A stretch of DNA of 64,000 bases, taken from Tubulanus polymorphus. Taxonomy: Eukaryota; Nemertea; Palaeonemertea; Tubulaniformes; Tubulanidae. Each line of letters begins with the position of its first letter. Position 1 is the first letter of the stretch. The stretch covers positions 2,110,001-2,174,000 of the forward strand of contig NC_134036.1 in NCBI RefSeq assembly GCF_964204645.1. The letters are read 5' to 3'. Both the position numbers and the translations under genes were made by a program. Positions 1 through 61,120 of the stretch are shown here, in pieces. Under the pieces are notes generated by a model. The model was not told the origin of the DNA. It saw only the letters and a list, made by a program, of their open reading frames with translations, and searched no databases.

Positions 1-3000
1 TTTCTGGGAAAACAAATTCTGTCGATGCCTAATCTGACGTCACTTAAGAAGTCACGTGACGCGATTCTATCACCGATCGCTGCTTGACAACCGTTTAACA
101 ATGATTAATACGGTTGTCAATGGATACGAAAGCGGAATTATCGCCGTCACGTGAATTGTTGTTGTTTCGCGAAATTATGAAAAATGACGTTACACAAAGT
201 TTCATAGCGGATTGTGAAGATCGACGTTACATCGCGGCGGCAACTACGTCTATTTGTCACGGTAATTTACAAAAACCGACGCAACACGCACTAGCGCGAT
301 CGTGCGATTGTTACAATAGTGGCGATCGTTACCGCGTAACTGGGGTTATTAATCTCGGAGTATCTGCTGATTAATGCCGGGATTAACTGACGGTCGGAAG
401 AACGGCGTGAAAAATGGCGCCCTCACCGGAAGTTCGTTAGGTTAGGAGAGTAGGTCTGTCTAACAAGCGAGTTAACAATAGATTGTGGTTGCCCTACTTT
501 AGAAGTGGAAAAGATATCCGTGGCTCAGTGGAAATGCTGACCGTGATTCAGGCAGAATTTCTATCCATGATCCATTCAAAATGATATCCTTGGTTCGGTC
601 AAAATTCAGCCCATGATTCAGTGACAATTCTGCTAATGGCTCTGTTAAGATTCTGCCCATGGTCCAGAAAACTTTTCAGTACTTTACATTAGTAAAAACC
701 TAGAAACCAGACAAAGCCATTTCGAGACTGGCTTTTAAGATCTCATTCCCAGATAGCAGCCTTTACCAGCACCCAGGCTTAGCCAGGTACAATAACGAAA
801 TAATTCAAAATCAACCAGAACAAAAAAAAAATTCATTCCTAAAATATTCCAAGCACAAGGTCGAGTCCAAGGTCAAAGCGTCGATTTTCTGATCATCGAT
901 AATAACCACGATATCCCGGAACCCCGTCGCCACACAACGCGGTACAACCGAAAGTTCAGCAAGTAGGCCACGCATGCGCATCGATCACTGTCCGATGGCG
1001 GATATGATACAGATCGATCATCGCGCGCGCGCGCGGTAAAATGTGTCGCCTGCCTCTCTACGAGCAGACGATGATTTATAACGTCCTATTCACAGTCGAA
1101 TCTATCTCCCGATATGTAAACAAAACCTTATCGTACTGATTAGGTAAACAAACATATTTGGTCCCTTACCCAAGTGGCTTTAACATAAATCAATTAGGAT
1201 GACCAATTTACTAATTCCCCGAGATTTCCATGTTATGATACGAAATTTCCTTTATGATTCTGCAGCATGTGAATGATAAAATTCCAATAATTCCAGGTTT
1301 TTTCAAATTCAAAGTTTGTCAAAGTTTTTTCCTCTAATTTTCTTTCTAGAATTTTGTTCTGATTTGCCGATTTTTGAAAGCTTTCTAAAGGTTTTTCGAG
1401 TAAAATTGGCGAAATTCCTTTTTTTACTTGACTTTTACTTTTTCTTATTCAGAGAATTTGCAATATACAGATTAAGAACAGCAGCAGTTAGTCTGGCTGT
1501 GTTATAAAAGGAAATAAATGTGGCCATTTTTAACCATTCCGGGACAAACTGAGCACAAAAATCATCTTTTCTGTAAGATATCAGAATAACACTGACGACT
1601 TATGACTGATGACCGATGACGAAGATTGATGAGACTTACAGGACACCTAATCTCAACCGTTGAAAAATATCGAGTACTTACGTAAAGTTTATTGGCCAAA
1701 TCAACCAACCAATCAACGAGGCGAACGCGGTGACATTTATAGTCACGTGACACGCGTCGACGTCGTTAAAACTGAAGTGTTGTCGTAACCGAGTAAAGTG
1801 TTAAGGGCGATGTGGAGCCCATTAGAGACGGCGCACTCGAGAGAACCCTGATGGGAATCAGTTTTACACCTATCGACACCCGGAGTGGTTCTTTACTGGG
1901 CGAAACTTCTTTTTTTTCGTGCGTTGAAAAGTCTCGCGTTACCGAGCGACGGCGCGTGCGCGCGATCTTCAACCGTTTCGATTATTGTATAGTCGTGTCG
2001 GATTATTACCGTCGGTTGCCTGGTAACCAGGTGCGTGAAATGGCGATAAAAATACCGTAAATGCGAGATATATACGGATATACAGGAGTAAAAATTATCC
2101 CAAAGCTCCGGCGTGACCTTCAGCTGCGGTGACAGTAAATTACGGCAAAGTGGCTCCAATATAGAAATGGTTTGCACCGACACCTTACCTGTAGAACGTT
2201 GGGCTTGTAACATACCGTATATGGGTAATGCAAAGTGCTTACATGAGCAAGCAAGAATTAGAATATTCTCGACAGAAACATAAGAAAATCTGGACAAAAA
2301 ACCCGACTGTCCACACATTGAGATAATGGGAAATTAGGGAATTAAGGAAAAGATTTTTTAAAATTGTTTAAAAACTTACCTACACGGATAAGACATCAGA
2401 AAGTACCGGAAAAGATAAAAACAGAATTGCATTTGTTAGAATTAAGTTAGAATAGAAACGATTACATTAAGAAAGGCAATCGAGCAAGGGGAGTGGGTGA
2501 GGGTAAGGGCGTTTATGGGGAAAGGTCGTAAAAGTTAAGGAACCAACATCTCCATTTGCCAGGTCAGTTTCCTGCAGCGCGATAAAAAACACAGTTAAAA
2601 CAGACGACCTCTAAAAGTTGGACAGCAGACGAATTAATGAAACGTTGTCATCACTTCATCAACGAAATGCGCGCGCGTTCAGTTCGTCTCAGTTCAAATC
2701 TCAGCGCTACCGGCACGAGGCTAGTTACAAACGGTCGTACCTGTTGAATCGTACGACGGTGCGTAACCACGGCAACCGCGTGCCGGAGCGTTCTCTGATT
2801 ATTATTGTGTCGAGGGTTGTTTTTTTGCGTTGTTGTCATTTTCTCTGGAAGCGACTTTGCGAAGATTCGAGTTTCATGTTTCGCAATTTGAACAGTCACG
2901 AAAGTTTGTCGTAGCGCAGACGATGCCACGCAGGGAGAGGTGGCAGACGACTGCTTACGGGGTTAATTTCACCCAGTCCTCACCAAAATAATTTACTCAC

Positions 3001-3425
3001 TAAAGAAATTGTTACTTTATGTTTTCAATGACGGAAGTACTTCAGAGTGAAACGTTGCGATCATTAGCTTTTTTCAAATGCCGTTGAACGAGCCCATTTC
3101 ATTTTAGTGCCACCAGATGGCGTCACCCGTTAATTTACCTTTTTCTTTTTTTTCAAATTAGATAAAACCTACACATTTTTTACCACACAATTGTTGATTT
3201 CAACAAAGCATTTGAACCCGGTTTGTAGGCAGGAAGGGTAACTTTACGAAAGAAATAACTGACTAACATATTACAGGAAACTTTTAAAATGTGGTTAAAA
3301 AACTCGTCGAAATCGTGCGTAAAAGTTTAATGGTAGCACTTCACAATATTGCGCAGCAGACCGAGGCTGTATTTCGCCTTACAGCCACCAGATGGCATCA
3401 CCGGCCGGTGTATCCTACTACTTAC
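1..3425 (-). other. Start of intron 1 of the NPR-like gene; no exon seen
   Basis: This stretch follows the GT donor of the receptor exon in transcription order. No open frame in it resembles the next part of the NPR ectodomain, the transmembrane segment or a kinase-homology/cyclase domain. It holds a short CG dinucleotide run (1022-1035), loosely repeated 50-60-bp text at 500-670, two nearly identical CCACCAGATGGC sites (3110-3125 and 3385-3400) and four copies of the GCAGACGA octamer (1064, 2625, 2916, 2943). It is probably incomplete, since intron 1 should continue beyond base 1. Confidence 0.6.
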
Positions 3426-4236
3426 TTCTAGCTTGGTGTTTAAGTTGGCTGACGATCTGTTTAAAACGTCGTCTTTTGAGCGGCAACGGAAATTCCAAGT
3501 TGAATTTATGGATATGTTCGCGGGCCACCATTTTCTTAACGATTTTGTACAGGGCCTCTAGCGCGAAAAAGCAGGCGGTATGTTTCTGATCCGGGTACTC
3601 CTCGTAAACGAACGCCAGACGATTCCAATCGAATTCCCGCAACGTCAGATATTCCATATGCGCGAACGTGTCGTAATTACCGACGATACGCGTCAGCAAC
3701 GGGAATTCCGTTTTATCGGCGAACGCGTGTACTAAAGCCCCGCTCGAGATTATGGGGATTCCCCAGAAAACGCTGAAACGTGCGACCGGCGCTACGGCGT
3801 AGTCACAACTCGGTCCAATAAACACGTGCGCCTCTTGTTGTATGTAGAAGTTAATAGCGTTCATCGGACCGTAGGTTTCCGAACAGCGCGAATCGGCGTA
3901 GTTTAACTGGAACGTATAGCCGTCCAGTAGTCCCGACGTCCGTTCCACAGTATCGACCGCTATTTCAATAGCGGGCGCTACTTTATACGTCGACCACATG
4001 TATTTAGTAGCGGTCGGTAGGTTGATACCGATTTTTATCACTTTATTCGGATCGTACGTGACGTCACTGTCACCGCCGCCTTTAAACGCGCCACCTAGCG
4101 GCGGTTTATTCACCGTGAACGACGACGTCTGATCGACACGTGACATGGCGACCGTTACTAGAATAACGGTAGAAACGAAATTCAAAATGGCGGAGTCGTT
4201 ATTCAGCAGTAATAGACGGCAACGAGCGTTAAACAT
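3426..4236 (-). CDS. Natriuretic peptide receptor-like ectodomain, first coding exon (partial gene)
   Basis: The reading frame encodes 270 residues plus one base before a GTAAGT splice donor (intron begins at 3425 on the minus strand); past the donor the frame stops within a few codons. Residues 17-30 are hydrophobic and could be a signal peptide. From about residue 66 (KVIKIGINLP) the protein resembles the ANF_receptor ligand-binding fold of natriuretic peptide receptors: VAPAIEIAV (86-94), DSRC (115-118), FIGPSCDYAVAPVAR (139-153), PIISSGALV (161-169), LTRI (181-184) and CFFALEALYKI (222-232). Cys118 and Cys144 match the first conserved disulfide of NPR proteins. In the family this extracellular domain binds a peptide hormone and controls either an intracellular guanylate cyclase (NPR-A/B type) or no catalytic domain (NPR-C type); this exon cannot tell which. 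The ATG at 4236 has A at -3. No further exon was found in 1-3425. Confidence 0.88.
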
Positions 4237-6735: not shown

Positions 6736-8399
6736 TCCCCAGCGTAGGTCGGATTACGGTAACGGACGTCGTCAGGTGTTTTGGTTTTTTCGCAGCGCTG
6801 TCATCGGCGGCGAGTTTGTTTTCTAGTCTCGAGGGATGCGTGCGCATCACCGCCCGATATCGGAGATCCGATTGCGGATGTCGTCTGCCTAATCCGGGGG
6901 CAATACGTCACAGCTGTCGTCGATGGATTTCAGACAGAAACGGAAACTGGAAATGGAATGCTTCGAGGAAATAAAAAAAAATAATCGGGATAATGATCAA
7001 TTCCACAATATTTTCTATTTTGCTGGTGACGCGACGATTTTCGAATATTTTTGGCGAATGGGTGACATTCAAGGAATTGTAGCAATTTGCTGCAGTTTGT
7101 CCTATGAGAAAAATCAATTTAAAAACAGAACCTCCTTCATGAGTTACGGCCATTAATCCTACAAGTAATAGGGAATAATGAGCAATCAAAAAGTTTATTT
7201 TTTTGACAGTTCGCTTTGCTTAATTCACTGGAAAGGTCTCAATATACTGACGACTTCGGCTAGATGTAAAGTTATTGTAGCGACAATATCATAGACCCTA
7301 CAGCACCCTATAGTATGAGGTGTTTCAGGAGCTGTTATATTGCATTATAAGCCTCACTCGAACTGAAGGTGTATAATACTGCAGCGTGCACGTGACTCGG
7401 AATTGAAAACGCTAATAATAGCTACGAAAGATCGTGACTGGAATCCGGAACCACGTGACCGGAATCTGTCGGCTATGTCGTTATTATCGTTTATTAAAAT
7501 GGGAGATAAGTTCAACAAGTTCTAGTTTTTTTTTTTTGTAGGAAAGGTATTATTTCCGGGGATGATTAATATGTAACGCAAGGAACCTGCAGCCTTTCAG
7601 AATTCCATGATTTGTAGCGAGGAGTGTGGACGATCATTTTTAGAATATTTAAGTCGATGCAGGTGCATCTTTAAGGAGAATCGGAATTAGTTTTAATTTC
7701 GACGTTTAAACTATGAATATAAGATTAGAAATTGGATTGAGAATGAAGCATCAGATATCTTGGAAGATGAGGGGGTTCAGGGGGTTCATTACAAAGACGG
7801 ATCCGGGAAAACAAGAAGACCAGTTTGACCTTTTGACTTTCTAAGTCTTAAGAAAAAGGGCCACCTTAATGGGAAGGCTAGGGTTCGGACCCCATAGACC
7901 ACCCAACACTCATCCACCCCCTGCAATAAATATGCTGTAAAAGCCCGTTTGCAAATTATTAACCAGCAGACGGCTTGGCAAGTCTAACAACATTTCATTC
8001 GTCGGTTATAAATATAGTTTTGTTTCAGCCTCGTCTGCGCAGTGTAATGCTATATAACCTAAAAGTGTTGTTATCGATTTCAAATCGATCAATAAAAAAC
8101 AGTTGATACCATAAGCAGACGACATCGAGAACAAATCGTTTTTTAACGACCAGTTTACGTGCATATATATAGAGATATAGTAATATTTATATGTCAAAGT
8201 TTTCGCACGGCATAAAGGCAGCCAGTTACAGTAGGCAAGGTGGCTTAGATTAGAAGACCAACTTCGGCTTGCAAGTCTCCGGTTTAAAGGTTATGTTTAC
8301 GGTGTAACACTTGACTGTTATCAATTCTTGTATGGCTTCAATTGAGTTAAATTTACATTCAGTCAAATTTAACCTTTACCACAATACGAGTTTCTACAA
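6736..8399. other. Intergenic; no gene seen
   Basis: CG-containing sequence to about 6910 is followed by AT-rich text without protein-like frames. TCGTCTGC/GCAGACGA octamers are at 6891, 8031 and 8115. A stretch near 8225-8285 (GGTGGCTTAGATTAG followed by GTCTCCGGTTTAAAGG) weakly recalls a tRNA A-box and B-box but cannot be folded as a tRNA. Confidence 0.35.
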
Positions 8400-10580: not shown

Positions 10581-13500
10581 AGAGTTTTAAGTCTAACTCA
10601 GTAGCATAGAATTGGATCCTGGTTCGGGAACTCCACCAGCTTCGAAGACTTTGAAAAGCCACCTTCCCTTAAGTTTACATTCAACCAAAGCTGATGTCGC
10701 GTACAACGACTCAACACTTTCAGAAATCCCATTTCCACTCAAGTACTCGTAGCTTTCTAACTTCCTCGCTTATACAAGAGATTTCGCTGGTTTTTGAAAT
10801 GAGATTTGTACATCCCCGCAACCTTTATGGCTACACTAGGCCAATTAGGTTTTATCAGCCAACCGATACATCTACGTACAGCCAGGGAAGTGTGATGAGA
10901 CTTCCCTGGTACAGCATAGAAAGATATAAAAATGCCACCGGGCATATTTCTTTGTCGACTATCGCCAAAGTGGCTTCAATTTTTTTCCATATCGTCGTTT
11001 GGCAAGAAGGTAGATTGCATTACAGTTTATGTTGGCACCGGCGAAGCACACGACACTGCATTAATAGCGAATGGTGCAGTTTAACGAATCGTCCATTAAG
11101 ACGAGTTTATTTGTTTTAAAAATGTTGGCGCTGTGTGTAAAGTGTGGGTTAATTAGCGGAGAAAGCAAGATCGAAGAAGTGGCTTTTAATGACATCGTTT
11201 CCAGAATGTTTGCCAGCATCGCCTTGTTGATACCCCAGCTAGCGAACAAGATGGCCACATTGTTCAATAAAGTATAGATTATGATAACAAAGAAATAGTC
11301 TAATAACAAGCCTTTATAATAAACCAATAGATGACAAAGACCAAATAATAACTCAAGTCTCGCTGAAGCTTAATTTACTGATGTCCACAGTGAATGGGAC
11401 GTAAGGCTGGGATTAAGTCAGGGTTATGCCTGGGCTAAGGTTAAACAAGGTCTTTTTGACAAACCAATTGATGGCAGAGATGAACCCAAAGAAATCCGCG
11501 TACTGGAGTCGCTACCATGCACGAATAGGTCATGCGGCGTTCTACACCGACAAGTTCATCATTGTGCCTGATTTAAAATTCACCTCCAATAAACCTCAGG
11601 ACTGATTGAATACGAGCAGCGCGAGTGACACGTGACACGAGACGTGAAGCAGACGACTTCAAACGGTTCACGCATCACGACAGACGACAATTCAATTTCG
11701 TGCCCATAAAATCCTAACAAAGTCAACAACCTCAATCGCGCCCCAAACTACTGATTCCTCGGGAGAACGACCAGACATCTAAAGAGGAACCATCAACCTA
11801 CTTCACGATTCTCAAAGGACGTTCAAAGTCCTTGGGTTCAAGGTCCTTGGGTTTCGTTACTTACTACTTGATAAAGATCAACTATAATTTCTGTAAAGAA
11901 GGATTTAGTCCAAGGTGCATTCAGTTTAGTCGTTATAAGTTGGTTTGTTTTCTTCTAGCCGGCTTTGTCCAAGTTTTTTTTTTTCATCTTGGCGACATAT
12001 AACCACCAACCAACTTTATGACCTAACAAGGACAACCAAGCTGATTCCGTTTTGTCACCCCTACTTCCTTAGCAAGATTTTCCAAGCTCGACGATTAGAG
12101 GCGTATTAAGCATAATCACCGTTAGCTGATATGTTCTTGGCTCTATTTAAGGAACAGCAGGACCTTCCCCTGTCATCAATTCCTATGGAGACACGAGCTA
12201 CAAACACCCCTCATTGGTGGTATATTATTTTTTTCCAAATCTCAATTTCTCTCTTGAATGTCCCAATATCGTTTAAACTCTATCAATCGTAAGAGCTATT
12301 TAAGAGCTAGCAGTTCATCAAGTACTGTTTACCAATCAAATTATAAACATGACTTCTTCTCCCAGCAGGTAGTAAATAGAAATATGTTTTTTTTACTGAT
12401 TAACTCCGCGCGACGTGAGGTCCTTAACAGTTATACTAATGTCATTCATTGACGACGCAGCGACGACATCGTCATTGACGGCGGTGGTTTCATTACCAGT
12501 AACTTACAATCGATAATTTATTGAATCGTTTAATTAAACCAGTAGATTACATATGCATACACCTTGGCAGACGACAAGCTGTGATGGTCGCATGAGTTTT
12601 TTCGATACACTATTCCCGCTATTCAAACTCCCGATCTTGCTCGAAGGAGAAAAACATGCCCACCATCTGTAATAGGTCCCTTTATGGCATTCAGCATAAA
12701 GGCTACGACAGAACACTATATCGCATTGCAATATCACCCAGATGTTCCTAAATATCACTTTTAAGATATCGTCGAAATATTGAATAAACATCATCTCAAA
12801 CAAACACTTTGGTCATTACTAAGTGTACTGTTTAATCTAGGAATAATTCATATTGTTACGGCAGTTTATACCGTATTTGAAATTACAAAAGATGTTTGTA
12901 TCAAATCTTATTAAAGTCATAATGAGTGTTATTGTTCTGGTCAGTACGTTTTTATATTACCACTAATTTGTATCACATCTTTTGCTTATTGGGATTAAGT
13001 CGAAACGTCACGACATTCATACTAGATCATTATGGTTTAACACGACACAATAATCATCACATAAAGGAAGGGTCCTTAATGTTATACGCATTTCATCATT
13101 GACGCCAAAAGTCCAATATCGTGATGTGCATCTCTTCGTAGCGATAACCGAAGCTATTGTTGCAGCGTCATTGTTGTGTCATATATATATTGACGTTAAA
13201 ACAATGTCTACTTCATGTGACGATAATGGCAACAATAAAAACAACAACGGCAACGGCGACAACGTGGAGATTACTCGACAACGTTAAAACAACGTTAAGT
13301 ATCATCGTGCCGACGTATCGTGTTATCACGTACGTATTGTTGGCGACGGACGACGGCGATTGTTGCGTTAACGCTGTATCTAAGAGGTTCTCGTGTGACA
13401 AGAATACCATATGTTTATATACGTCTAAACGGTGGCATAGTTTTCATTCTTGGATACACATATATATAGCCACATGTTTATTGTACAATAGTCTACGGTT

Positions 13501-13929: not shown

Positions 13930-15425
13930 ACCACTCTCTCTCTCCCTCTCCCTCTCCGGCTCTCCCTCTCCCTCTCCCTCTCCCTCTCCCTCTCTCTCTC
14001 TCTCTCTCCCTCTCTCCATTTCACTCGTCCCTCTTTTTTTCCTCTCTCACTTACTCCCTCCTTTCACTCCCCCTCTCCCTCACTCACTACCCCCTCCTTC
14101 TCTCCCTCTCTCTCTCTCACTCACTCACTACCCCCTCCTTCTCTCCCTCTCTCTCTCTCACTCACTCACTACCCCCTCCTTCTCTCCCTCTCCCTCTCCC
14201 TACACCCTCTTCTCTCCTTCTCTCCCTCTCCCTCACTCACTACACCCTCCTTCTCTCCTTCTCTCCCTCTCCCTCACTCACTACACCCTCCTTCTCTCCC
14301 TCTCTCTCTCTCACTCACTCACTACCCTCTCCTTCTCTCCCTCTCCCTCTCCCTACACCCTCTTCTCTCCTTCTCTCCCTCTCCCTCACTCACTACACCC
14401 TCCTTCTCTCCTTCTCTCTCTCTCACTCACTCACTACCCTCTCCTTCTCTCCCTCTCCCTCTCCCTACACCCTCTTCTCTCCTTCTCTCCCTCTCCCTCA
14501 CTCACTACACCCTCTTCTCTCCTTCTCTCCCTCTCACTCACTCACTACCCTCTCCTTCTCTCCCTCTCCCTCTCCCTACACCCTCTTCTCTCCTTCTCTC
14601 CCTCTCCCTCACTCACTACACCCTCCTTCTCTCCTTCTCTCTCTCTCACTCACTCACTACCCTCTCCTTCTCTCCCTCTCCCTCTCCCTACACCCTCTTC
14701 TCTCCTTCTCTCCCTCTCCCTCACTCACTACACCCTCTTCTCTCCTTCTCTCCCTCTCACTCACTCACTACCCTCTCCTTCTCTCCCTCTCCCTCTCCCT
14801 ACACCCTCTTCTCTCCTTCTCTCCCTCTCCCTCACTCACTACACCCTCTTCTCTCCTTCTCTCCCTCTCCCTCACTCACTACACCCTCCTTCTCTCCCTC
14901 TCCCTCTCTCTCTCACTCACTCACTACCCTCTCCTTCTCTCCCTCTCCCTCTCCCTACACCCTCTTCTCTCCTTCTCTCCCTCTCCCTCACTCACTACAC
15001 CCTCCTTCTCTCCTTCTCTCTCTCTCACTCACTCACTACCCTCTCCTTCTCTCCCTCTCCCTCTCTCTCTCACTCACTCACTACCCTCTCCTTCTCTCCC
15101 TCTCCCTCTCCCTACACCCTCTTCTCTCCTTCTCTCCCTCTCCCTCACTCACTACACCCTCCTTCTCTCCTTCTCTCTCTCTCACTCACTCACTACCCTC
15201 TCCTTCTCTCCCTCTCCCTCTCCCTACACCCTCTTCTCTCCTTCTCTCCCTCTCACTCACTCACTACCCTCTCCTTCTCTCCCTCTCCCTCTCCCTACAC
15301 CCTCTTCTCTCCTTCTCTCCCTCTCCCTCACTCACTACACCCTCCTTCTCTCCTTCTCTCCCTCTCCCTCACTCACTACACCCTCCTTCTCTCCCTCTCT
15401 CTCTCCCTCTCCGGCTCTCCCTCTC
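13930..15425. repeat. Polypyrimidine minisatellite of about 111-bp higher-order period, G-free for 1.38 kb
   Basis: The plus strand is almost only C and T with CACTCACTAC and CTACACC interruptions. Words such as CCCTACACCCTCTTCTCTCC recur at 14201, 14354, 14466, 14577, 14689, 14800, 14956, 15113, 15225 and 15296: mostly 111-112 apart, with 153-157 and 71 variants. No G occurs between 14028 and 15412. Both ends carry the same motif CTCTCCGGCTCTCCCTCTCC (near 13953 and 15408). Open frames within it are artefacts of composition. Confidence 0.9.
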
Positions 15426-15570
15426 CCTCTCTCTCTCCTCTTCCCGCACCCCGTGTCTCGAGTTCTCTTTCCCTCTCCCTCTCTCTCTCCTCTTCCCCCA
15501 TCCCTGTCTCGAGTTCTCTCCCTCTCTCTCTCTCTCCTCTTCCCGCACCCCGTGTCTCGAGTTCGGCCAG
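15426..15570. repeat. Three copies of a 50-60-bp unit with CTCGAG
   Basis: CTCTTCCCGCACCCCGTGTC followed by TCGAGTTC occurs three times (about 15438, 15490 with CCCCATCCCTG, and 15538), separated by CT-rich spacers. It closes the polypyrimidine tract and is probably an older part of the same expansion. Confidence 0.7.
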
Positions 15571-16052
15571 ACGCTTGTTTTCCTGTCGATCCCGATATTT
15601 CCGCTTTACAACTGTTTGACATGAAAAGAACGACGGCGAAGAGAACGGTCGCTTGCCGCAGTTAGAATTACGCGCTACACGACCAGCGAGCAGACGACAG
15701 ATGCTGAAATTCTCAACGACCGAAAACACGACAATACGATATATCAATATCAATATCAAACAACGCGGCATTAATTTCGATATTCTCGGTTTTTGTAGCT
15801 TTTGATTTGCGGCAATATCAAACCAATGTAATAAAGCGCGGTCTTAATAATAACAGTTTTCATTATGATATATCAATATCAAACTGCACAATTACGATAT
15901 TCCATTTTCCCATTCGATATTTACTAAGGAAAAAACAACGACGATATTGATGAATATTTATGATGAGGCTATCTTTTTAAGATTTTCGAATTTTCGAGTT
16001 GTGCCAGATTAGTGTCTGTTAAAAACTGTATCAGGTCGTCAAACCCGCCAAC

Positions 16053-16135: not shown

Positions 16136-16724
16136 TTAAAGAAAAATTCCGCCTCCATGAAAATATTTTTATCAAAAAGTCCGAGGACATCGTATCATCC
16201 CCGTAATATCTCAAGTCCGAATGATATTTGATATTCGAGCTTTTGATATCATCATGTACCATAAGATAGTTGACCTAAGGTATTTCAAATCTGAGACAAA
16301 AGCCTCTTAGATGTCCTCTTCCGTCCGAAGGGCAAACCGACTTTCACCAGACGAGTTCGAAAAATAAAAATCGAAATTTCTTTTCAAAACGAAGGATGTC
16401 TGTCTGCTGCAACCAGCGCAACCACAGCAGCAGCAACAGAAGCAGCATCACAGCCAGCATCCAAGATCAGTAGATACGGGGATGAATTATCGCTGGACCA
16501 ATGAATCATCATCAAACGTTTTCGAACACGGAAATGCTTTTTCAATCTCGTCTGCGCGTAGTTCATTTAAAGATCGTCTGCTTCAAGGAACTGGTCTTTA
16601 GATCTACAGTCAGACCAGAACCGATAAATAACTACCTAGCTACCTGTCTCTGTGATCTGTGAAAAAAACTACACTGTCTTATCTATCGACTCTGTAAAAT
16701 CGATAGCCACGGGTTCGTCGGGTT

Positions 16725-16945
16725 GTAGCCAATCTAACAACTTAAGACCAGTCTAAGCGCATCATGGTTCTATAACCAATCTAACAACTTAAGACCAGTC
16801 TAAACTCATTTTGATTCGATAACTAATCTAACAACTTAAGACCAGTCTAAGCTCATTTTGTTTGTAAAACCAACTTAACAGCTTTAAACCAGTCTAAGCT
16901 TATTTTGGTTCCGTAGCCAAGCTACAAATTGAAGACCAGACAATG
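16725..16945 (-). repeat. 47-bp satellite, short array (about four units)
   Basis: GGTTCTATAACCAATCTAAC followed by AACTTAAGACCAGTCTAA recurs with 47-base spacing, diverging toward 16945. It is the reverse complement of the array at 29150-29830 and matches the interior of MITE family A. Confidence 0.85.
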
Positions 16946-18830: not shown

Positions 18831-19218
18831 TGCCACAATCGGGTTGCCGGAGTCAGAAGAAACCGAATCATTGAATAGACGCTTCACTTGACACAGAAGG
18901 TTTCCCGACGATTGAATGAGAGTTAATTAAGTGAAGTGAGATCTCGATAAATAGGATTAATTCGTCTGCGATTGAGAGATTTACCTGTCATACGGATTAA
19001 CAGGGAGAGCGCTCCACAATCTCTCGGGAGGTCGTGACTGAATGTGACCTTCCTCACGAGTAATACGTAAATACGACGCCGACAAGTCGCGCACATTTAT
19101 ATCATCCAGATACCGGATTCACACAAGGTTTCATCTAATCATCTCCACATTATATTAAAATGTCTCAGTTTTGTATATCTTTATGTCATGTTGTAATTCA
19201 TTGTGGAAATAAATCATT

Positions 19219-19366: not shown

Positions 19367-20029
19367 TCAATATTATCTCCAGATACCGGATTCAGCGATG
19401 AGTGTTTTACTGGAATTTAGTTCAGTCTGATGTGAAGAATGGATAATCAGTTATCACGTCTTTCTAAATGTTTCAACTCCAGGAACCAATTGTGAGCTTA
19501 GATTCGACTAGTTTTAAAATCTACTATATACAAAATTAAACGATTAAGCGCGATTTAGAATCAGGTCATTCGAAAAGTTGCTTCGATTCCAGAATTCAAA
19601 CTACTTTAAGGACGACAGGGTCACGAAGTCCGCACCTCAGGGAGAAGATCTTTATCAACAACGATTTTGGGATGAAATCAATTTCGTGTAAAATTCGTAG
19701 CCTCGCATTTATCGGAATAGCTTCCCACTCGATACACGCAGCAGCAGACGAAGAGTTCACGACGAGGTTATCGCCGATTCGAATCATAAATCGGGATTCG
19801 AACCCAATCGAATTACAATCAGTTAACAACGATTTCGTTCTGAATCGATCGATCGATACTCGCACCCGCCGATAACGATCTATATATATCTAATTGCATT
19901 CCGACGATAATTAAATCACGTGATGCGTAATTACTTACTACTAGCAGTATACCACGTGAGCAATAAATCGACGTATGCTACTTGCGGGGACAGTCGCCAT
20001 TGTGTGAATTCGACAAAACGTCTTCAAAT

Positions 20030-20540
20030 ATGTGATGACGTCATAGGGGGAACTATGAAGTCGGCCATCTTTCCCGGAAAGTCTCTATCGACTTGACAAT
20101 TTTTAGAAGCAGTCACCTTTTGCTATAAGTGTTTATTATCGGTATCAATTTGCAGACGACATTCAAAGCAGCTCAATCACCGAATCAAATAGATGCCGCC
20201 ATTCTGAAAGCAGCGATCCATTCACTGACACTAAAGGGGGATTCATGGAGGCAGCCATGTTTTCTAGAAGTTTTTACGTTATCATTTGATTATGTCAAAG
20301 AGGGATTAAAGGAAGTGGTCATCTTTCCTGCCATGCCAGTATCACCAAATCAAGTTGTTGATATAATAGGATTTTGAATAGGCGGCCATCTTTTTTTTTC
20401 TCAGTTACATCACATTGATGATGTCATAGGGGGATTTTGGAGGCAGATATCTCCTTCGTAAGTATCACCACTAGAACTTGATGACGTCATTAGGGGATTT
20501 ACGGATGCGGCCATCGATTCTGGCGATGTCTAAATCGCCG
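20030..20540 (+). repeat. CRE-core dispersed repeat, tandem copies
   Basis: Imperfect units carry TGATGACGTCATAGGGGG or TGATGATGTCATAGGGGG, then GATTT, then GGCGGCCATCTTT or CAGCCATGTTT, then a linker with AGTATCACC. TGACGTCA is exact at 20036 and 20482. The same family occurs at 17830-17880 (minus), 22050-22440, 35385-35690 (minus), 37905-38235 and weakly at 59320-59450. Confidence 0.8.
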
Positions 20541-33939: not shown

Positions 33940-35380
33940 ATTTATTTGTCATTTTGTTTTTTAACAAGACTAAAGGCTCGATGGGAGAAGGGGCGCGATA
34001 AGGGAACGGGGAGTCGATTGTGTAAAGTACCATTGATCGTTTTTAAGTCTCCACTAACACGAAGTCAACACAGCTGTCTATGAAACCAGTGATTACAATA
34101 GGAGGCTTCGATATTAGCTTCGCTGTTAAGCTTCGGTTCCATCTCGAGTATAAAGAAAATACTGAACCTAACTACTAACACGCTCTATTTAGTCGCGGTA
34201 TCCGTCTGCGGGCAAAGGGTGATTCGTGAGACATGTTAGAGAGAGGGGGAGAGAGAGAGGGAGAGGAGGGGGAGGGGGAAATATTTGGAAGCAGACAATG
34301 AAGGCAAGTCGATGAACCAGGGCCTTCACCCATAATCACAATTCCAGCAACAATTTTATTGCCCGTTTTCGCGCTATTTCAGCGCAACGGTTCTCATTGT
34401 TAACGGCTGCTACGGTACACGCCGTCGTTAGGCGTCGATAACAAACAATTATTATTATTACGCAATCAATTCCAAATCTCGGAGTAAAGCTAATAATAAT
34501 AATGATGATAATATACACCCGAGTTAAATATTAATCGCGTGAAAACATTTATTTTACTCGAGAGTAAATATTTAATAACCATTAACAGCGCGAGAAATGA
34601 CGAGATTTGAACGAGAGCGGATTACAGGGGTGATTGTCAATAGGTGCTCCTCGCTTTAGGAATCCAATTCCACAATTTTACGGTAAAGTTCCAGATCCAA
34701 AGTTTTTAGGGCGAAAAAATTAATTAATTAAAAAATACGATTATTTTTAAAATTTGGGTAACGATTTTATACTATTCAAATTCAATTGAAAATCCATCAC
34801 AAAAAGAAAATTAGATTTCAATTTAATCTTACCTCTAACCGAAATAAAAATGAATATAAGGTATATTTAGTTGAAAAAAATTCTAATTTTCTGAAACAAA
34901 ATGTTAAATTCAAACGATAAAACTATAATTCGATTTCACAGTCAAATCAACCTACAAAAATTCGAAGTATCAAAAAGAGACAATTCTCTGTCAGACAGAA
35001 ATATTGAATTTTAATTTTACGAAATAGATTTTTGCCTTTGTCGCTGAATTTGACAAAAACATAAAACAATTCCAAAGACAACTAGTCTTAATGGCGAGAC
35101 AAAGAGAAATCGTTTGTTTGTGAAATTCCAAATCGAGTAGGCAGAGACGACAATTCGCAAAACCGATTGAATTTGTCTTCAAGGCAAAAACAACAGTCGT
35201 CTGCTGTATCCGTTTTCTCATTGACGATATACACAATATTTTACGGGGTAATTTAGTTATCGATTTTCCAATCATTTTAAGACCGGTTTTATCAATATTG
35301 TTCTGTAATATACTAATAAAGAGACCTGTAGCGAAACTTCGAAATCAAACTCCGATAAACCCTGTGCTGAAAACATGGCT
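33940..35380. other. Intergenic, AT-rich; no gene seen
   Basis: A short GA-rich run lies at 34235-34285, and ATTATTATT words surround 34450-34510. The rest (34650-35300) is AT-rich with scattered GAAATT-like words. One TCGTCTGC octamer is at 35197. Minus-strand frames around 35000-35270 have no family resemblance. Confidence 0.35.
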
Positions 35381-35690: not shown

Positions 35691-36034
35691 GATTCCGGCT
35701 CTGGTGCAGGTTGGGTAACGGTCCGCGGGAATTCCGTGCCGTTGGGAAACCCCCCTCCCCCTCTCTCTCACTCCCCCGACTAAATACACACTATAGACTG
35801 TTAGTAATCAAACATCGACATGTGATATGTAAATATATTTACTCATATCGTTAATTCGATAAACAGAATTTCGAGCTGTTGGTATTAGATAGCGAGTTGT
35901 ATGACGATGAAGGAGAGATAGGGCGATGGCAGACGAGAAGGCTTTTAATCCAGCCTACATAAGACATAAGACATAATTCGTTATTCAAAGAAAAAGAAAA
36001 AAAGAAAACGTTTGATGTAATTGATATGAGAAAA

Positions 36035-42401: not shown

Positions 42402-43207
42402 AGTAACAAAATTCATAAGCCACAGGTTATAAGTCACAAGCAGCTGAAATAACTAAACTTAGCTCGCAATAGTAGTTTCAAAATAACTAGGTCCTTACGG
42501 GGACTATGGTTTGACAGTGGATTAAGAATAAAACAGGGATTTAGAAAAGATTAAGCTCGGGTAAACCCTCGTAAAAATGTGGGCAACGCCCACTGGGGCC
42601 AAATTCAAAACGGCCGCCAAAATATGACCTACAGCCCATATTTGGTAAGAGTATCTAAAAGGAAAATGTGCATTGGTAACAATTACAAACTTCTTGAGCC
42701 GACGATTGAAGCAAGTTCATGCTTTCAAAGCTTTGTTAGCAAAATGGAAAACTACTTGAGCTGGGACTCTAACTTTTAGAACCAATTTACCGAGCAGAGA
42801 GCTTCTTCAAACTGGACCGACTGATCATTTTCAGAACCGAAACGATTCTTTCATTTTGCATTATTTCATTCTGATAACACAACATTTGCACCTCTGTGAA
42901 AAGTCGACGATAAGTCGATGCGTGATAACCTTATAAAGAACACATCACAGCAGATACCGTTACACTGAGGTTGGGCGTGTGTGTGTTTATTCAAACACGA
43001 TCTAGCGAATTGATATAACACCCGCCCCGGGGAACCCTTTCTTCCATCTCCATCTCTCGCTCTATGGCAGACGACATTATTCTAGCCTATGTCTATTTAT
43101 AATAATAATAATAATACTATTTTATATCCGGAGGAATCGATTTTTTCATTTCGTTTAACGTTCGACGCTTCGAGCTCTGAGCAGAAAAAAAAGTGAAAAG
43201 GGGAGAG

Positions 43208-45859: not shown

Positions 45860-47220
45860 TTAATTCCTACGTTACCCCAGGTGATACTACGAGAGTAGTC
45901 GCGTCGATGTTATTATCTATCGAGGATTAGTTGCCGAGCGATCGGGAAGAGTAATTCGGATTATTGCGAACGAAAAAATTAATTCACGTTTCACACGTCG
46001 AGTAGATTAGCGAATACTCCGAGATTAAATCCTCACGGGCCTAGTAGCCATAGCAATCATAATCCGTGGAGTAAAAAAATAATCCGGGATTAATCCTTTC
46101 TCGCGCTCTAAGTATATAGATACATGTAGACGTAATCCGGTGGTAAAGTAATCCACGTGCAGCAAGCGCGCTTACAACCGAATGTCAACGCTTTACAACA
46201 ACGTAAGCGTTGGATAGCGTTATTATAACGTCAACGTCGCACACGGCGGTAGTAACGTTGCGTTTACGTACGTTTAAAAGCTGCACGAGTCGACCGCAGC
46301 GCTCAGCGCAACCGGCGAGCGAGGTATTCACCGTCGACTCGATCGCCACCTGGTGACTTAACCGAGAAACATTTGATTCGACGCATCGCACGCGTAGTTA
46401 GCGGTTAATACGATAGATGGCGCAGTAATTTAGGCAGGATGGCGTTAAATTGACACCAAAATAGTATTTAGATTTTTAACTAAAAAGAAGTAATTTCCTG
46501 ACTAACACTCTTAGACATTTCAAAACCAACCTTGTGACCCTCGTTTAAATATACCCTTTGCTACCATGGTGTCATAATAGTTAGATTGACATAGCCATAT
46601 CTCACTCCATTAGCGCCGGATCCAAGGACGTTAAGACTTATTTTCATTTTTAACAGCCTTCCAAGTAAGCACAATCAAGAGCCTGAAGACGGAACGGACT
46701 CTGGTAAAACCTTAGAAAGCCCAAAGACAAAGCCTTATATTATTACATCAATTAGAATTTCTAACAACTTCGAGATTTTGCATCTCATTATTTTTAGCAT
46801 CTGAAAAAATCGATTGTAAAATTCAACAAAGGTCTATTTTATCACGGATAACAAATGCAACGACGTCCAAAGAAGAACTCGGTTTTGTCGGCCGTATCAG
46901 TCTAATATCGTGTCTTAAAGGCGAGTGGAGGTAAGGCTGTTGTCATAGTGAAAATTATTTGATCCAGTCACCTCCGATGATGAAAGGCAGACCCCTCCCC
47001 CTCTATCTCAGCGCCCCTAAGGTGCTACCAGGTATATTTACAGAGACAGCGCGCGAAGACGATACGCACCGATAAAGTTCATCTGTCTCATCATATAACA
47101 TGTAACATTTAAGGTCGTCTGCTTAAAAAGAGACGTAGGTAGTTTTTTTATCGATAGAGAAGGGCAGACGATTTTTTTACTTTCTGCAGAGCGGCGATTG
47201 TGAGTGCGTAATTACTAGAT
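45860..47220. other. Intergenic with ACG patch and CTCF-like site; no gene seen
   Basis: 46180-46290 is dense in AACG and ACGTC. A CTCF-like word GATAGATGGCGCAG is at 46412-46425, near GGATGGCGTT. Octamers TCGTCTGC (47115) and GCAGACGA (47164) lie 49 bases apart in opposite orientation. No protein-like frame. Confidence 0.4.
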
Positions 47221-49640: not shown

Positions 49641-51155
49641 TTATACCAGCAAGTCGCCGTTTCGGGCACACGCGGAGGCAACAAATCTCGGTTCTCATTT
49701 TATGAAATCCCGGCGGAGGTCAGAATCGATGAGGTTTTTATATAAACAATAATACCCGCCGACGAGCGAACGCTTGACGACACTTTTACGACTATATCAT
49801 CCCGAATAGATTTTACGACAAATGACCGTTTTGTTTTACGGCTTATTTCGTAAACGCGGATAATGGTGTTTTATTGGACGATATTGGATATCTGTCAGAT
49901 GGATAGAGAAGGTGGTCTGGAAGTCCAATCTCTCGATCGAGATCTATGTGGAAACGTTTCCACAATGTGTCCTAAGTCACAGATGGGTCGGACGAAATCA
50001 TAATATCATGAGTCTGGGTCTACAATATTATCTCAATTGGTCCCAATGACGTTCGGAAGTTCAAGCTCTGGACCATGGTCCATCTGAAACCCTGTACAAA
50101 CCATGTCCAAAGTCACAGCTGTAGAAATGGATGCAACAAAATCAAAATATCATGAATCTCAGACAGGGGGGTCTGGGAGTCCAAGCCATGGCCCAGATCC
50201 ATCTGGAACCGTGTCCAAAGTCACCACAATTGGGACAAAAGTCTCAACTCGGGCAAAAGTGAGAATTGTGGAAATCGTAGAGCTAAAAAAAAGGGTGTAA
50301 TTGAGTTTATGTGCCCATAGTGACGAGTCTTGAATCGAGTGCAGAGCCATAACTTCAGAACAGAGTCCAGAATGCCATGCGTGGAGTCACAAGTGTAGAT
50401 CTAACGAAACGAGTCCAAAGTGATAACCGTGAAACTTAATCCAAAATGTGACATCAATCATTTCATTTTCTGGGAATCCAAATGCCGTGTTTGAAACCTG
50501 AGTCCGAAGTCATAAACTTGAAACAGGATCCTGAATGTGACATCTTTCATTTGGTTTTCCGCGAAACCCGTTACCGGGGTGACTGCACTAATAGGACAAC
50601 AATCAACGAATCGACGTCACAAATCACAAACGACGTCCGCGCTGGAGTAAATTCACTCTCGGATTTACGACCATGGAATTTACTACTCCGGTAGTAATTT
50701 TACGACGCGTTAATATTGGATGTCGTAAAATCTGCTATCTAACGACGGCCGTAAAACGGTCGGAGGATGCGGAAAGTTACGGGAACGGCGAGAGAAACGG
50801 ACAAGTACCCCCGGTATCATCGACTCATAAATCAATAACCAGAGCAGACGATAGGTTCATAATGGAAGATCCTATTGCATTGTTGTCCAAATAACAGAAT
50901 AAACAGAATGAACACTAGTAGAATAAGAAGTACTTTCAAACGGAGCTCCTTTTTATAATTGATAATATGCAAATACGTTCGTGTAACATTTTTTATGAAT
51001 TCTTCTTTGGCACAAAAACTGAAAAAAGTTGTCTACTGTTTTTTTAATGTAAAATTACGATATTGGAATTGGGTCCTCATTGAAATTTCTATCCGACTAA
51101 TTTGAGATATCTGAGACGACCCGAGGAAAATGTGGTCTACAATATTATTGAACAA
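49640..51155. other. Intergenic, loosely repeated text around 49970-50560; no gene seen
   Basis: Words GTCCAAAGTCACAGCTGTAG, GTCCAAAGTCACCAC, GTCCAAAGTGATAACC and GTCCGAAGTCATAAAC recur at irregular spacing, suggesting an old satellite. The open frame at 50103-50300 follows it and is not considered coding. Octamer GCAGACGA at 50844. Confidence 0.35.
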
Positions 51156-53229: not shown

Positions 53230-53620
53230 TTTACTAAATCGACAACGTCGCTCGCACCGTCGTTAATCACGACGTTACGTCATTTACGTCAACCGACGTA
53301 AGGAAACCATTTATTTCATACGTTATATAAACCGTATTACATACGTTAACGTTAGAATCCTAATCAAACGTTCAACAATCGCTACGGTTATTTTTCCCCG
53401 AACGTTAACGCTGCCGACGGGGTAAGAATATTCCGAACGGGTGACGTCATCGGCGGAAACGCCGACGGTACTTCCGGCGAAGGTAACGTACGCGTTGGGC
53501 TTATCTTTTACGTTAAATTTCCGGCGTTACCCGTTAGTCGCCCGTCGTCTGTTGGCCGCCGTTGCCGGGAGATATTTTCTAAGTCGCAGACGAGCAGGTA
53601 CCCGCAGACGACTGTAAAAC
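53230..53620. other. ACGTTAACG patch, CpG-rich
   Basis: Dense AACGTTA, ACGTCA, CGTTAACGCTGCCGACG and CCGGCG text. Two GCAGACGA octamers (53586 and 53604) lie 18 bases apart at its right edge, and a TGACGTCA is at 53442. Could be a CpG-island-like regulatory region; no exon is recognised. Confidence 0.4.
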
Positions 53621-55060: not shown

Positions 55061-55259
55061 TCGTTTTTCTCTATCAAACTAAAATCATCGAAATCGTTCA
55101 AAAAAGCGAGACGCGATTGAACACGACGAAACTCGTCTGCGCTTCACCTCATCTCTCCGCTATCTGTCTATCTACCCCTCTAACTCACCGACAGATACCA
55201 CACAAGTGTTTGAACGCGATCTCGAGGTCTGACGAACCCGACTTGTTCGTTTACGGCGA

Positions 55260-56749: not shown

Positions 56750-58300
56750 AGAAGGTAAAGATGTTCGAGAAACTAGAATTCCATTACAACAAATCACAGC
56801 ATCGCTTCTCGTCATCCTATACCTGCCAACAGTCGTTGTCATGCCGATAATTGTTGATAATAACGTTATTAACGTCGTTGTCATCGTCGTTTACTCCGCA
56901 ACAATGCAACAGAAACGCAATAATACGGTTAATTATTGCTAGGTGATTTTTCGTTTGTCTACAGTTCCAATTAGCATCGTTATCGTCTGCCTCGGGATCG
57001 CGGTTGCTAATGGAGACAGAAAAACGAAACGAGAAGGACGGCGCGAAAAAAAATCAAGGTCAAGAATTTTGTTTTTCAAACATTTGGACTTGATTGGCAT
57101 TCCGGTAATCACAACTTACTGCATTGCTACAGTTGCATTCAATGATGTTTACATCTTTTAAAAGCTTTTGAGCAAATGCGTCCAGAGCCTTTTTGTTGGG
57201 TAGATTTTACAGCATTGTAATGTTTTTAACAACGGAGCCGTTAATGATTTAACGGAATTGTCGAAATGTTGTCAGCAATTTTCTAACTGTTCATTTATCA
57301 GTTTTTGAGGACAAAGGACCTAAAAATTAGTGAGTTCCATTTTCGAAACGCTTTAAGAAAGTTACAACACAATGGTCGACTTGTTTTCAGCAATCTTTTA
57401 ACCGTTCATTTATTGGTTTTTTACTAACTTTTCTCAAAACAATTCCGGAGCGTCGGTTAAAAAAACAGGGTCAATCCAAATTCAGAGAATATTGGCAAAA
57501 ACCAAGGAAGGAAGTAACGATTTCATCAGGAGAAGCATAAACTATTGGGTGCACAGAACTCGAAGGAAATATGAGTTCCATTTCTGTTACATTTTGAGAA
57601 CGTCACAAAACATTTGAGATCGTGACGTTTATCTTTTATTTTAGAATATGGGCGATTCATCAGGACAAGCATGCTTTACAGCATCTGTTATCCTTTATCT
57701 TATCGTATCTCACCGTTATCTTATCGTAAAGAGGAGAGGAGAAAGAAAAACAAACTTTCATGAAAAAAGTTAAATCGAACACGAACGCGAATTAAATCTA
57801 AATCTAAATCTAATACCGACAGCAGACGGCGGAGAACCTGTCACGTGTCACGCGCATTAACGTCTAGGTACAAATTAACGGATGATGGTTGCTGTGTTGC
57901 AGTTAGCAGCGACGTGGTGCACGCTCGGTTGGAGATTAAGTTCGTCTGCTGGTACACGCCGGTACGGTGAATAATGAGCCGTTCGCGTGACGCAACTGGT
58001 ATCGTCAGCCTCGGTCGTAATAATTACCGCCGTGTACCGTTAATAATTGGGATAATGATTTAAAATGTGCTTTGCACGCGGCCGCGGTGACAGCAGCGAC
58101 GTGCGTAGACTTATCACCCTAAACTATCGGAATCTCTACAGACCGGTAAACAAACATGTAACGCTATTTTGAGATGGTGCTGAAAATCGGCGAGATGTGA
58201 AGATAAAGAGATGAAACGTGTTCGATCGGTCGTGACTCGCGACAAGATCGGGTCAAGTTAAGAATGAGTCGACCCAAGACCAAGTCGAGCAGATAACAGA
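56750..58300. other. Intergenic; no gene seen
   Basis: Small frames at 56742-57161 contain hydrophobic runs but no family resemblance. ATCTAAATCTAAATCTAA is a small tandem repeat near 57795. Octamers TCGTCTGC at 56983 and 57942. Confidence 0.35.
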
Positions 58301-58304
58301 TGAA

Positions 58305-58490: not shown

Positions 58491-59319
58491 ACGGATATTG
58501 GCTTTGGTCTAATCAGAGATAAGGATAGCCAGGTGCCGGGGATTCACGGATACTTCTGATATTCTACATTAACTTTTATTTGTATCAGTTATCAATAAAT
58601 TAGGCACATAACACAGCATCTAGTAGTTCCCTATATTTCTTGATAAATACTCATAAGTATTCGATATATCAAGAACGACAACGATTTTTAAACGTTCCCA
58701 GGAGCAGACGACTTGTCTCACAATCTCTGAAACTCAGAGGCGCTTTAAAGCCGGTTACGCAATATTAAAACTGCAGCATTAAATTTCCCGGAGGAGCAAA
58801 ATTTACAAGACTTCGCGAAATTTCGTTACAGCGCGAAAAAAATTACTTTCTAGATTTCTTAATTTTCTGCGTCTATTTCTCAACGGGACCGTATATTGCC
58901 GACCGACATGCGCCGACAAATTGTATTCTCGTGTTGTCTCGTTAACGACGAGATTTAAGACGGGATCGCTAATTCCCGCGCTGCCCGTTTACCGACAGCG
59001 AACACATGCGACACGTGTGAAAGGGTCATAAATTCGAGAAATAGACCCCGAAATCGAATCCGGGTCGACGGAAAATGGTTAAGTAACTTTCGCTGTTCGG
59101 AAAATGGACGGAAATAATAAAAAAACATGTTCTTTTTTCTAATTGCAACCCAACGATTTTTAACTGATTTACAATTTCCGGTACAAAATAACGATTTGCT
59201 GAAATTGGGACCAATTGCACATAGTCATGACTTAGAGATTTGAGACCAGTCTATGTCCAACACAACTAATTTTTTGTAAGCAGCCATTTTCTAAAGTGAT
59301 TCGCAACACTTCAAAAGGG

Positions 59320-59455: not shown

Positions 59456-59751
59456 GATAAAAATAGCTCAGAATATCATAGAATAATTCTATAAAATATC
59501 ATATGAAAATGAACTATGATTTCACAAAGCAATATCGACGTTTCGACTCTCGATTTACGTCTTGTCCGTTCGTCGTTTCGTCCGACGTAATAATATATAA
59601 ATTCCCGATTTTCTATCGCCGTCGCCGCCGGTACCGCAGACGAAGATTAATTCAGTTTTAGCAATCGTCGGAAATGTACCGAGTCATCGAGAATGAGACG
59701 ATGAATTCGGACCCCGCGGGCACCTGCCCGTTTATATAATGTCGCTATGCA

Positions 59752-59756
<5 letters not shown>

Positions 59757-59782
<26 letters not shown>
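59757..59782. repeat. TA dinucleotide run
   Basis: CATATATATATATATATATA and onward; simple sequence. Confidence 0.95.
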
Positions 59783-59965
59783 GCAACGGGTGCTAAGTAA
59801 CGGATCCGTTCGCTCTGTTGTAATCTCGTCTGGAGTCGGAGGTCGGTAACATAATAATTTAATAAATGAAAACAGCCGAAAATATCTTGAAACATATTTC
59901 CATTTTTGCCTCGAGCATTCCGAGCGTTTGTCAAAGGTTACGGCAAACATGGTCACGACGAGTCT

Positions 59966-60074
59966 GGGCGCAGTTTCACAAAAGGTATTAAGACCTAAAT
60001 TGATTTAAGATAAACTGAATTAATGAAGAAATTAAATCGATTTAACATTAAATCCTATTTGTGAAACTGGGCCC
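59966..60074 (+). mobile_element. MITE family C, well-preserved copy
   Basis: Inverted ends GGGCGCAGTTTCACAAAAGG and TTTGTGAAACTGGGCCC frame an interior of TTGATTTAAGATAAACTGAA and TTAATGAAGAAATTAAATCG. 109 bases, no coding capacity. A diverged copy in reverse is at 9224-9337, and GGCCCCAGTTTCACGAG at about 45130 may be an isolated end. Confidence 0.85.
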
Positions 60075-61120
60075 TGGAGTCAAAACTGGAAGGCCTATCT
60101 TATGAGAGAAGCTCCTATATTTACTTAGGTGATCGAGGCGTTTGCTAAAAGTTACGGAAACAGCTTTGAGTCAAGTCAAAACTGGTAGCTCGATATAGCT
60201 CAGGACAGAAATGACTCCAACGCGTGTAAAGCCAGTTAGAGCTTCTCTGATTGGCTAAATTTGTTTTGTTGGTATCACAATACCTCAGATGCAAAGAAAA
60301 CTACCAGGCGAAATTATCTCAGGCGAAATGAGAGCCAACCATTTGCACTGTCAGATACAGCTCAAGGCCTGGAAACGAATGTTGTAAGACTAAAGTAGAT
60401 GTTACAAAAGTAGTCAAAGGTTAAGAATCTCTTCGGGCGAATGAATCATATTTTCTTCATAAGCACGTTACGTTTCACTTTTCCGATTTAACTCTTAAAA
60501 CAGGATTAATTCTCACTGTTGAACCGAGGCGGACAGTCGAGATTTAGAGAATGTTGCCATCGGCGACAGACTTTTCACTTTAATAAAAGGAAATGAGAGA
60601 ATAACTCTTACTGTTGAATCGGACTAGGATTGTCACCACGAGCAACTGATAATAAACCATAATGTTGCTGCGTGTTGTTTCCGAAGACAGAAAAAAAAAC
60701 CGGCAGCGGTCGGGTTGAATTCCACATCAGCAGACGATCCCCGGGGTCCGTACCCTGGATGCCAGACACAAATACCGGAAATGTCAGCGAAAACCGGAAA
60801 GCAAGAAAACAAATTGAGAACAGTGGGAAAGATTAGAACCCTGGAAGTAAAACCGGATCGCTATGTTTCTGAAGTTAGTTAATCCCGGAGTAATATAACC
60901 CGCTACTGCTGGATAATCGTCACCGTTACTTATTCACGAATGTTGCTAGAAATAAAATCCCCAGGGAGACGAGTTATCTGATATATCCGATACCGTTAAA
61001 ACGATATCTCATTGTTTATAACGATGTAAAGTTGATATTTCTGTATAGTGAATTATTCAATATGTGGTCGACTATCAATACTAGCCGTCTCTTAGCTGTC
61101 CATTATCGGCAACCATTATT

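Follow-up and report, generated by a model that had tools for sequence, protein, structure and literature searches.

The octamer GCAGACGA (reverse complement TCGTCTGC) is packed into a single domain of at least 0.31 Mb in the genome of the nemertean Tubulanus polymorphus. We studied it from a 64,000-nucleotide stretch (the window; GCF_964204645.1, contig NC_134036.1, here C12, positions 2110001-2174000) that lies wholly inside this domain. This domain extends over the 5' region of what appears to be a receptor guanylyl cyclase gene on the minus strand. With confidence just short of even, we read it as a very large homotypic field of sites for one DNA-binding protein, which would probably regulate this locus.

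The window holds 37 exact copies of GCAGACGA, 23 on the plus strand and 14 on the minus strand. Dinucleotide shuffles of the same DNA predict 1.35 copies (standard deviation, 0.96), and none of 100 shuffles reached 37. An earlier, sequence-only reading of this DNA had counted 37 copies against about two expected, and its count was right. Markov models of orders 0 to 4 predict 1.1 to 3.0 copies (1.9 at the third order); orders 5 and 6 predict 14.5 and 33.3, because those orders already hold most of the octamer. The positions given by that reading were exact for 36 of the 37 copies, the one placed at 6891 having its true start at 6881, and its three close same-strand pairs (27, 26 and 18 bases apart) are present as described. 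It also had the preceding base as often A or G, which is only partly right: the base is A in 19 copies, C in 10, G in 7 and T in 1, so that T is avoided. The domain and the copies, located by exact match, are as follows (window positions).

1 to 64000, no strand: whole window, contained in the motif domain (C12:2,087,269 to 2,395,369 or beyond)
1064 to 1071, plus: GCAGACGA
2625 to 2632, plus: GCAGACGA
2916 to 2923, plus: GCAGACGA, paired at 27 bp with 2943
2943 to 2950, plus: GCAGACGA, paired with 2916
6881 to 6888, minus: GCAGACGA, earlier placed at 6891
8031 to 8038, minus: GCAGACGA
8115 to 8122, plus: GCAGACGA
11649 to 11656, plus: GCAGACGA
12567 to 12574, plus: GCAGACGA
15690 to 15697, plus: GCAGACGA
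16548 to 16555, minus: GCAGACGA, paired at 26 bp with 16574
16574 to 16581, minus: GCAGACGA, paired with 16548
18962 to 18969, minus: GCAGACGA
19744 to 19751, plus: GCAGACGA
20152 to 20159, plus: GCAGACGA
26337 to 26344, minus: GCAGACGA
27078 to 27085, minus: GCAGACGA
27273 to 27280, minus: GCAGACGA
27833 to 27840, minus: GCAGACGA
28981 to 28988, plus: GCAGACGA
35197 to 35204, minus: GCAGACGA
35929 to 35936, plus: GCAGACGA
38480 to 38487, plus: GCAGACGA
39103 to 39110, plus: GCAGACGA
39857 to 39864, plus: GCAGACGA
43067 to 43074, plus: GCAGACGA
47115 to 47122, minus: GCAGACGA
47164 to 47171, plus: GCAGACGA
50844 to 50851, plus: GCAGACGA
53586 to 53593, plus: GCAGACGA, paired at 18 bp with 53604
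53604 to 53611, plus: GCAGACGA, paired with 53586
55133 to 55140, minus: GCAGACGA
56983 to 56990, minus: GCAGACGA
57942 to 57949, minus: GCAGACGA
58704 to 58711, plus: GCAGACGA
59636 to 59643, plus: GCAGACGA
60730 to 60737, plus: GCAGACGA

The DNA that we read around the window totals 264 kb of this single genome, made up of a 77-kb left flank (from C12:2,010,001) and a 187-kb domain stretch; about 290 kb was read outside the window in all. Our repeat mask covers DNA repeated within the 264 kb and leaves unmasked any repeat that has its other copies in the rest of the genome. Such repeated DNA makes up 15.4% of the window and is touched by none of the 37 octamers; the proposed avoidance of satellites and miniature inverted-repeat transposable elements thus holds as far as tested. 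After masking, GCAGACGA is the most over-represented dispersed 8-mer in both the window (z = 18.3) and the domain stretch (z = 30.6), compared with z values of 6.0 and 9.4 for the top 8-mer unrelated to it and a maximum of 4.9 in the left flank. This is an excess of one site over the local background in unique DNA, as in a homotypic cluster.

The domain has a sharp left edge at C12:2,087,269. The 77 kb to its left (2,010,001 to 2,087,268) contains no GCAGACGA, and the 187-kb stretch that starts at the edge contains 118 exact copies, compared with 6.3 predicted by a third-order Markov model. Across the genome, GCAGACGA occurs 9210 times in 267.8 Mb (reversed word, 7847), which is 2.2 copies per 64 kb; the strong excess is thus a local feature. 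The unbiased enrichment is about 18-fold (118 in 187 kb versus 34 per Mb genome-wide). We rejected the idea of a genome-wide motif, which the sequence-only reading had put forward: the comparison of the genome-wide count with expectation, a check set in advance, refutes it and leaves the local finding standing, with the strong excess confined to one domain of about 0.3 Mb. Two 7-kb samples farther right, at C12:2.340-2.347 Mb and C12:2.390-2.397 Mb, had 8 and 3 copies, the last at 2,395,369. The domain thus spans at least 308 kb, and extrapolation of 0.63 sites per kb over that span gives a total of about 195 sites.

We mapped the octamer across the genome with three 12-mers picked from flanks that are frequent in the domain; they overstate the enrichment and therefore serve for location only. 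Within C12:2.087-2.370 Mb fell 25 of their 224 genome hits (11 of 97, 6 of 50 and 8 of 77; reversed controls totaled 63, 39 and 10), and none fell in the 9.2 Mb of C12 from 2.37 to 11.55 Mb. The right edge lies beyond 2,395,369 and probably before about 2.45 Mb, as judged from the missing 12-mers. By eye, the next-best concentration is 6 hits in 0.26 Mb at C10:11.61-11.87 Mb. Smaller chromosomes were richer in general, with 37 of the 224 hits on C10 (14.3 Mb) and 11 on C1 (32.1 Mb). Repeated regions lie on either side of the left edge. Inside the domain, C12:2091559-2091704 is a minisatellite (unit, about GTATAGCAGACGAGAGAGAGG) with six octamer copies; left of it, C12:2011058-2055679 is a tandem gene-family array (MATSNPDRFEISVPFKGRRV...) with repeated EERLNRFCTEQQL units.

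Comparison of the flanks, suggested by the sequence-only reading, left only positions -1, +8 and +9 conserved and extended the motif to about 11 bp, V[G/a]CAGACGA[Y][A]. Among 154 sites of both R-CAGACGA forms, T stands at -1 in 8, C or T at +8 in 115 and A at +9 in 75; outside the core, no other position within 200 bp on either side passes a Bonferroni bound. The core itself is exact. The 24 single-mismatch forms together number 143 in the domain stretch, compared with 130 expected, and the forms that stand out are ACAGACGA (31 versus 7.7) and GCAGACGG (13 versus 3.2). The variant ACAGACGA is specific to the domain (one copy in the left flank). One of its 31 sites belongs to the minisatellite; the remaining 30 repeat the outer preferences, with a base other than T at -1 in 29, C or T at +8 in 22 and A at +9 in 16. 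Such a tolerated variant with shared flanks is the graded specificity of a homotypic cluster. Eight ACAGACGA sites lie in the window.

2600 to 2607, plus: variant ACAGACGA
Other ACAGACGA starts: 6542 plus, 11680 plus, 29041 plus, 41126 minus, 52546 minus, 53545 minus, 63748 plus

CAGACGA with any first base occurs 172 times in the domain stretch and 7 times in the left flank, a 10-fold difference per kb, whereas CAGACG with C, G or T as the next base (59 versus 12) differs only 2-fold. Of the 118 domain sites, 108 are in DNA that is not repeated in the stretch, and their flanks are unrelated. CpG is not depleted (observed/expected, 1.07 and 1.18), and a lack of CpG-decay products is therefore uninformative. 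Within 100 bp of the sites, ATCGATC (20 versus 2.9) and GCGCGC (20 versus 3.6) are commoner than elsewhere in the domain; the sites may lie in regulatory DNA, and a few local tracts could also cause this enrichment. Close pairs are in excess, with 10 gaps below 50 bp compared with 3.3 expected. Strand runs, which could mark transcripts, were not significant (P = 0.28; 0.16 after thinning). This is the profile of a candidate protein site of about 11 bp; it does not match a repeat, nor a promoter that has another element at constant spacing. The binding site suggested by the sequence-only reading fits it: the core is exact, the flanks are soft, ACAGACGA keeps the same flanks, and wider homology is absent. 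AGCAGACGATAT is the form of the site to use as the probe in a DNA pull-down.

The field begins 4.2 kb upstream of the first constant exon of the apparent cyclase gene and extends over its cassette region. The constant part runs from C12:2,083.0 kb (2083044) down to about 2,070.9 kb and comprises exons for the C-terminal ligand lobe, the transmembrane segment, the kinase-like domain and the cyclase. This part together with the 4.2 kb to the edge (16.5 kb) contains no GCAGACGA, compared with about 10 expected at the domain density. All eight queried pieces of the constant part were single copy in the 264 kb plus the two 7-kb samples, which settles a single-copy constant part for the cassettes at 2,113, 2,181 and 2,271 kb only; coverage of the interval 2.274-2.427 Mb was limited to the two 7-kb pieces. 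A whole-genome search with PF01094 (115 of 127 candidates scored) gave N-lobe matches on the minus strand at about 2,113.6, 2,180.8, 2,271.0, 2,317.9 and 2,426.2-2,427.0 kb (~2,426.5), one C-lobe match in 2.07-2.43 Mb (2,081.4 kb) and a further set on the plus strand at 2.965 Mb. One cassette lies in the window.

3426 to 4236, minus: N-terminal ligand-lobe cassette exon (PF01094 positions 2-135), no octamer inside

This cassette (~2,113.6 kb; open reading frame, 3418-4236) is followed by a phase-1 donor beginning at 3425. All three readable cassettes of the five are closed by phase-1 GTAAGT donors (GTAAGTAG, GTAAGTAG and GTAAGTAT), and the first constant exon starts with a compatible phase-1 acceptor. 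The 2,181-kb cassette has its own ATG, and its leader was judged to be a signal peptide. The anatomy is apparently that of a variable-first-exon cluster, in which the cassettes would share the constant part. As in the UGT1 and protocadherin clusters (as outlined in the available part of PMC1885805), several cassettes stand in tandem upstream, the DNA read has a single constant 3' part, and the splice phase is compatible, here at three cassettes. The locus differs from them in its product, a receptor guanylyl cyclase whose ligand lobes vary, and in carrying the octamer field, and its splicing is predicted from DNA. NCBI labels the window cassette as a separate "atrial natriuretic peptide receptor 3-like" protein.

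In the model that we favor, GCAGACGA would be the core of a site of about 11 bp recognized by one sequence-specific protein. About 195 such sites, on both strands over at least 0.31 Mb, would cover the cyclase 5' region with its five N-terminal cassettes and would be kept by selection. The protein would coat the region as a locus-wide activator, repressor or architectural tether and might determine the choice of cassette promoter or the timing of locus activity. We consider it highly probable that the field consists of binding sites for one protein; that this putative protein regulates this locus we put at about an even chance. A stronger version, a locus-specific DNA code in which one dedicated protein reads the ~195 words and controls cassette choice in protocadherin fashion, with the locus's own architectural motif replacing CTCF, seems unlikely; a limited literature search found no locus with such a dedicated motif over variable cassettes. 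If the sites are bound, a 0.3-Mb domain would be written by sequence alone, in a code that is short, exact and countable and has a sharp left edge, which poses directly the question of how large chromatin domains are specified. The apparent variable-cassette cyclase would also add a signaling receptor to the variable-first-exon gene clusters.

Several observations weigh against this interpretation. The octamers are not concentrated at the cassettes, with 3, 5 and 1 copies within 2 kb of the three starts examined, and the field and the cassette array coextend only approximately, as the right edge lies past the DNA read. Two rhodopsin-like receptor open reading frames lie inside the domain with two octamers each, so that the cyclase gene does not have the domain to itself. 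These frames are duplicates that keep both octamers in both copies, which is uninformative because the same is true of 36% of all 8-column windows. Four C-lobe exons are known at 2,081-2,083 kb, and the PF01094 search picked up one of them; with C-lobes under-detected and 2.274-2.427 Mb sparsely sampled, a second constant part could serve the 2,318- and 2,426-kb cassettes. The 2,426-kb match has an internal stop, and the 2,271-kb cassette has a second, earlier phase-1 GTAAG candidate. As for the motif, the left flank (7 in 77 kb) is as rich in GCAGACGG as the domain (13 in 187 kb). Pair orientation is mixed (alike in 9 of 10 pairs below 60 bp and in 7 of 19 at 60 to 200 bp), and close GCAGACGA pairs genome-wide number 128 match rows compared with 353 for the reversed word. 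Small secondary clusters of the GCAGACGA type occur, among the matches listed, at C10:11.61-11.66, C9:3.327-3.353 and C4:18.699-18.710 Mb.

The strongest rival to regulation of the locus, although a rather unlikely one, is that the field serves a chromosome-handling protein (at a meiotic pairing center, origin, insulator or dosage element) and that the receptor locus is a bystander. The scale of at least 0.31 Mb, the one dominant domain and the use of both strands suit such a role, as does the location on C12, 2.1-2.4 Mb from one end; at 11.55 Mb, C12 is probably the smallest chromosome-size contig. Pairing centers of the Caenorhabditis elegans type are bound by a C2H2 protein during meiotic prophase. 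C. elegans pairing centers, in the accessible portion of PMC9071541, likewise have short motifs (12 bases; HIM-8/ZIM) enriched over one region at chromosome ends; there is one center per chromosome near an end, whereas here one dominant domain overlaps a gene locus. The related word AGCAGACGGATA is absent from C12; of its 71 match rows, 15 (8 separate places) fall in C10:12.40-12.96 Mb, which lies 1.3-1.9 Mb from the end of that contig. Because of this concentration and the sparse sampling of 2.274-2.427 Mb, we moved some weight, slightly, from the locus to the chromosome-level explanation. However, the octamer has no equal domain elsewhere in the 12-mer map (25 of 224 hits in 0.28 Mb of C12; next, 6 in 0.26 Mb of C10), and the left edge falls between the cassette and constant exons of one gene. 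A 7-kb piece inside the C10 concentration (C10:12.645 Mb) has neither GCAGACGA nor GCAGACGG, another (C10:12.800 Mb) is satellite-like DNA, and the 11-mer map of the sister word GCAGACGG (GGCAGACGGCT, 84 places) is unconcentrated, on C10 as elsewhere, with no hit in the C12 domain. With AGCAGACGGATA concentrated on C10 and GGCAGACGGCT not, the maps disagree, and other domains using the sister word are not proven.

A nonfunctional origin, in which mutation, tandem duplication or conversion seeds the word locally, also appears improbable. Tandem duplication does spread such words: the domain contains the octamer minisatellite at C12:2,091,559, and the close direct pairs of GCAGACGG genome-wide (173 match rows, against convergent pairs in 3 places) are mostly tandem duplicates. 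Together with the shortage of GCAGACGA pairs relative to the reversed word, this means that pairing need not reflect cooperative binding. Against seeding stand the 108 sites in nonrepeated DNA with unrelated flanks and the domain-specific ACAGACGA, whose shared flank preferences are not expected from copying. We rejected remnants of one decayed repeat family as exceedingly improbable. The short shared word and some minisatellites would fit, but the octamers lie on both strands and mostly in unique DNA (none of the 37 window copies in repeated DNA), no flank is alignable or shared past +9, and near-matches are close to background rather than graded. The flank and near-match tests thus uphold the view of the sequence-only reading that the copies do not come from one repeat.

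A promoter element of many short noncoding RNA genes is very unlikely. At a glance the field resembles the C. elegans domains of PIWI-interacting RNA (piRNA) loci, where the Ruby motif (CTGTTTCA) provides an exact 8-nucleotide core, domain-wide and on both strands (PMC4015492, available excerpt). We disfavored this candidate on spacing. Ruby loci have a spacer rich in A/T and, at about 40 bp, a 5' U (same excerpt), whereas around our 154 sites A/T content is flat within 200 bp, neither that spacer nor a downstream start signal appears, and no position outside -1 to +9 passes the Bonferroni bound. The best word besides pieces of the motif, GACTG at +140 (14 versus 2.7), comes from tens of thousands tested. 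Rfam at gathering thresholds gave one match in the window, a tRNA gene (33864-33936, plus strand). The piRNA loci in that excerpt are largely outside coding regions; here, each of the two receptor reading frames contains two octamers.

Homotypic transcription factor site clusters share with the domain many copies of one short site with unrelated flanks on both strands and one tolerated variant. They are usually confined to an enhancer or promoter and reach at most a few kilobases; the field here differs in covering at least 0.31 Mb with about 195 extrapolated sites. A SMAD element was a candidate; for such an element AGAC or CAGAC suffices, often as a palindrome with a second half-site. The octamer contains CAGAC, a SMAD site (AGAC/CAGAC; excerpt of PMC11607640). 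In contrast, the excess here requires the G and A after CAGAC, as the 10-fold and 2-fold differences indicate, and no second half-site stands at a fixed distance. A literature search for the octamer gave one unrelated match only; in that same excerpt, an octamer-related word appears once, in a synthetic reporter.

The sister word GCAGACGG occurs 9 times in 7 kb at C10:1.095 Mb (four inside a degenerate tandem repeat), once at C9:2.010 Mb and not at all in the 7 kb at C10:12.645 Mb. Among the matches listed (100 of 173 rows), many unrelated minisatellites with GCAGACGG in their units lie in C9:0.79-2.34 Mb; a 7-kb sample between them was not rich in the word. GAGCAGACGATC and AGCAGACGGATA number 77 and 71 genome-wide, compared with 10 and 17 for their reversed controls, reversed words being an imperfect control. 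C10:12800001-12807000 is AT rich (33.5% GC) with many repeated words and is probably satellite. The window itself contains a CT-rich satellite (13934-15441) and a 47-bp satellite in two oppositely oriented arrays (16729-16939 and 29176-29742).

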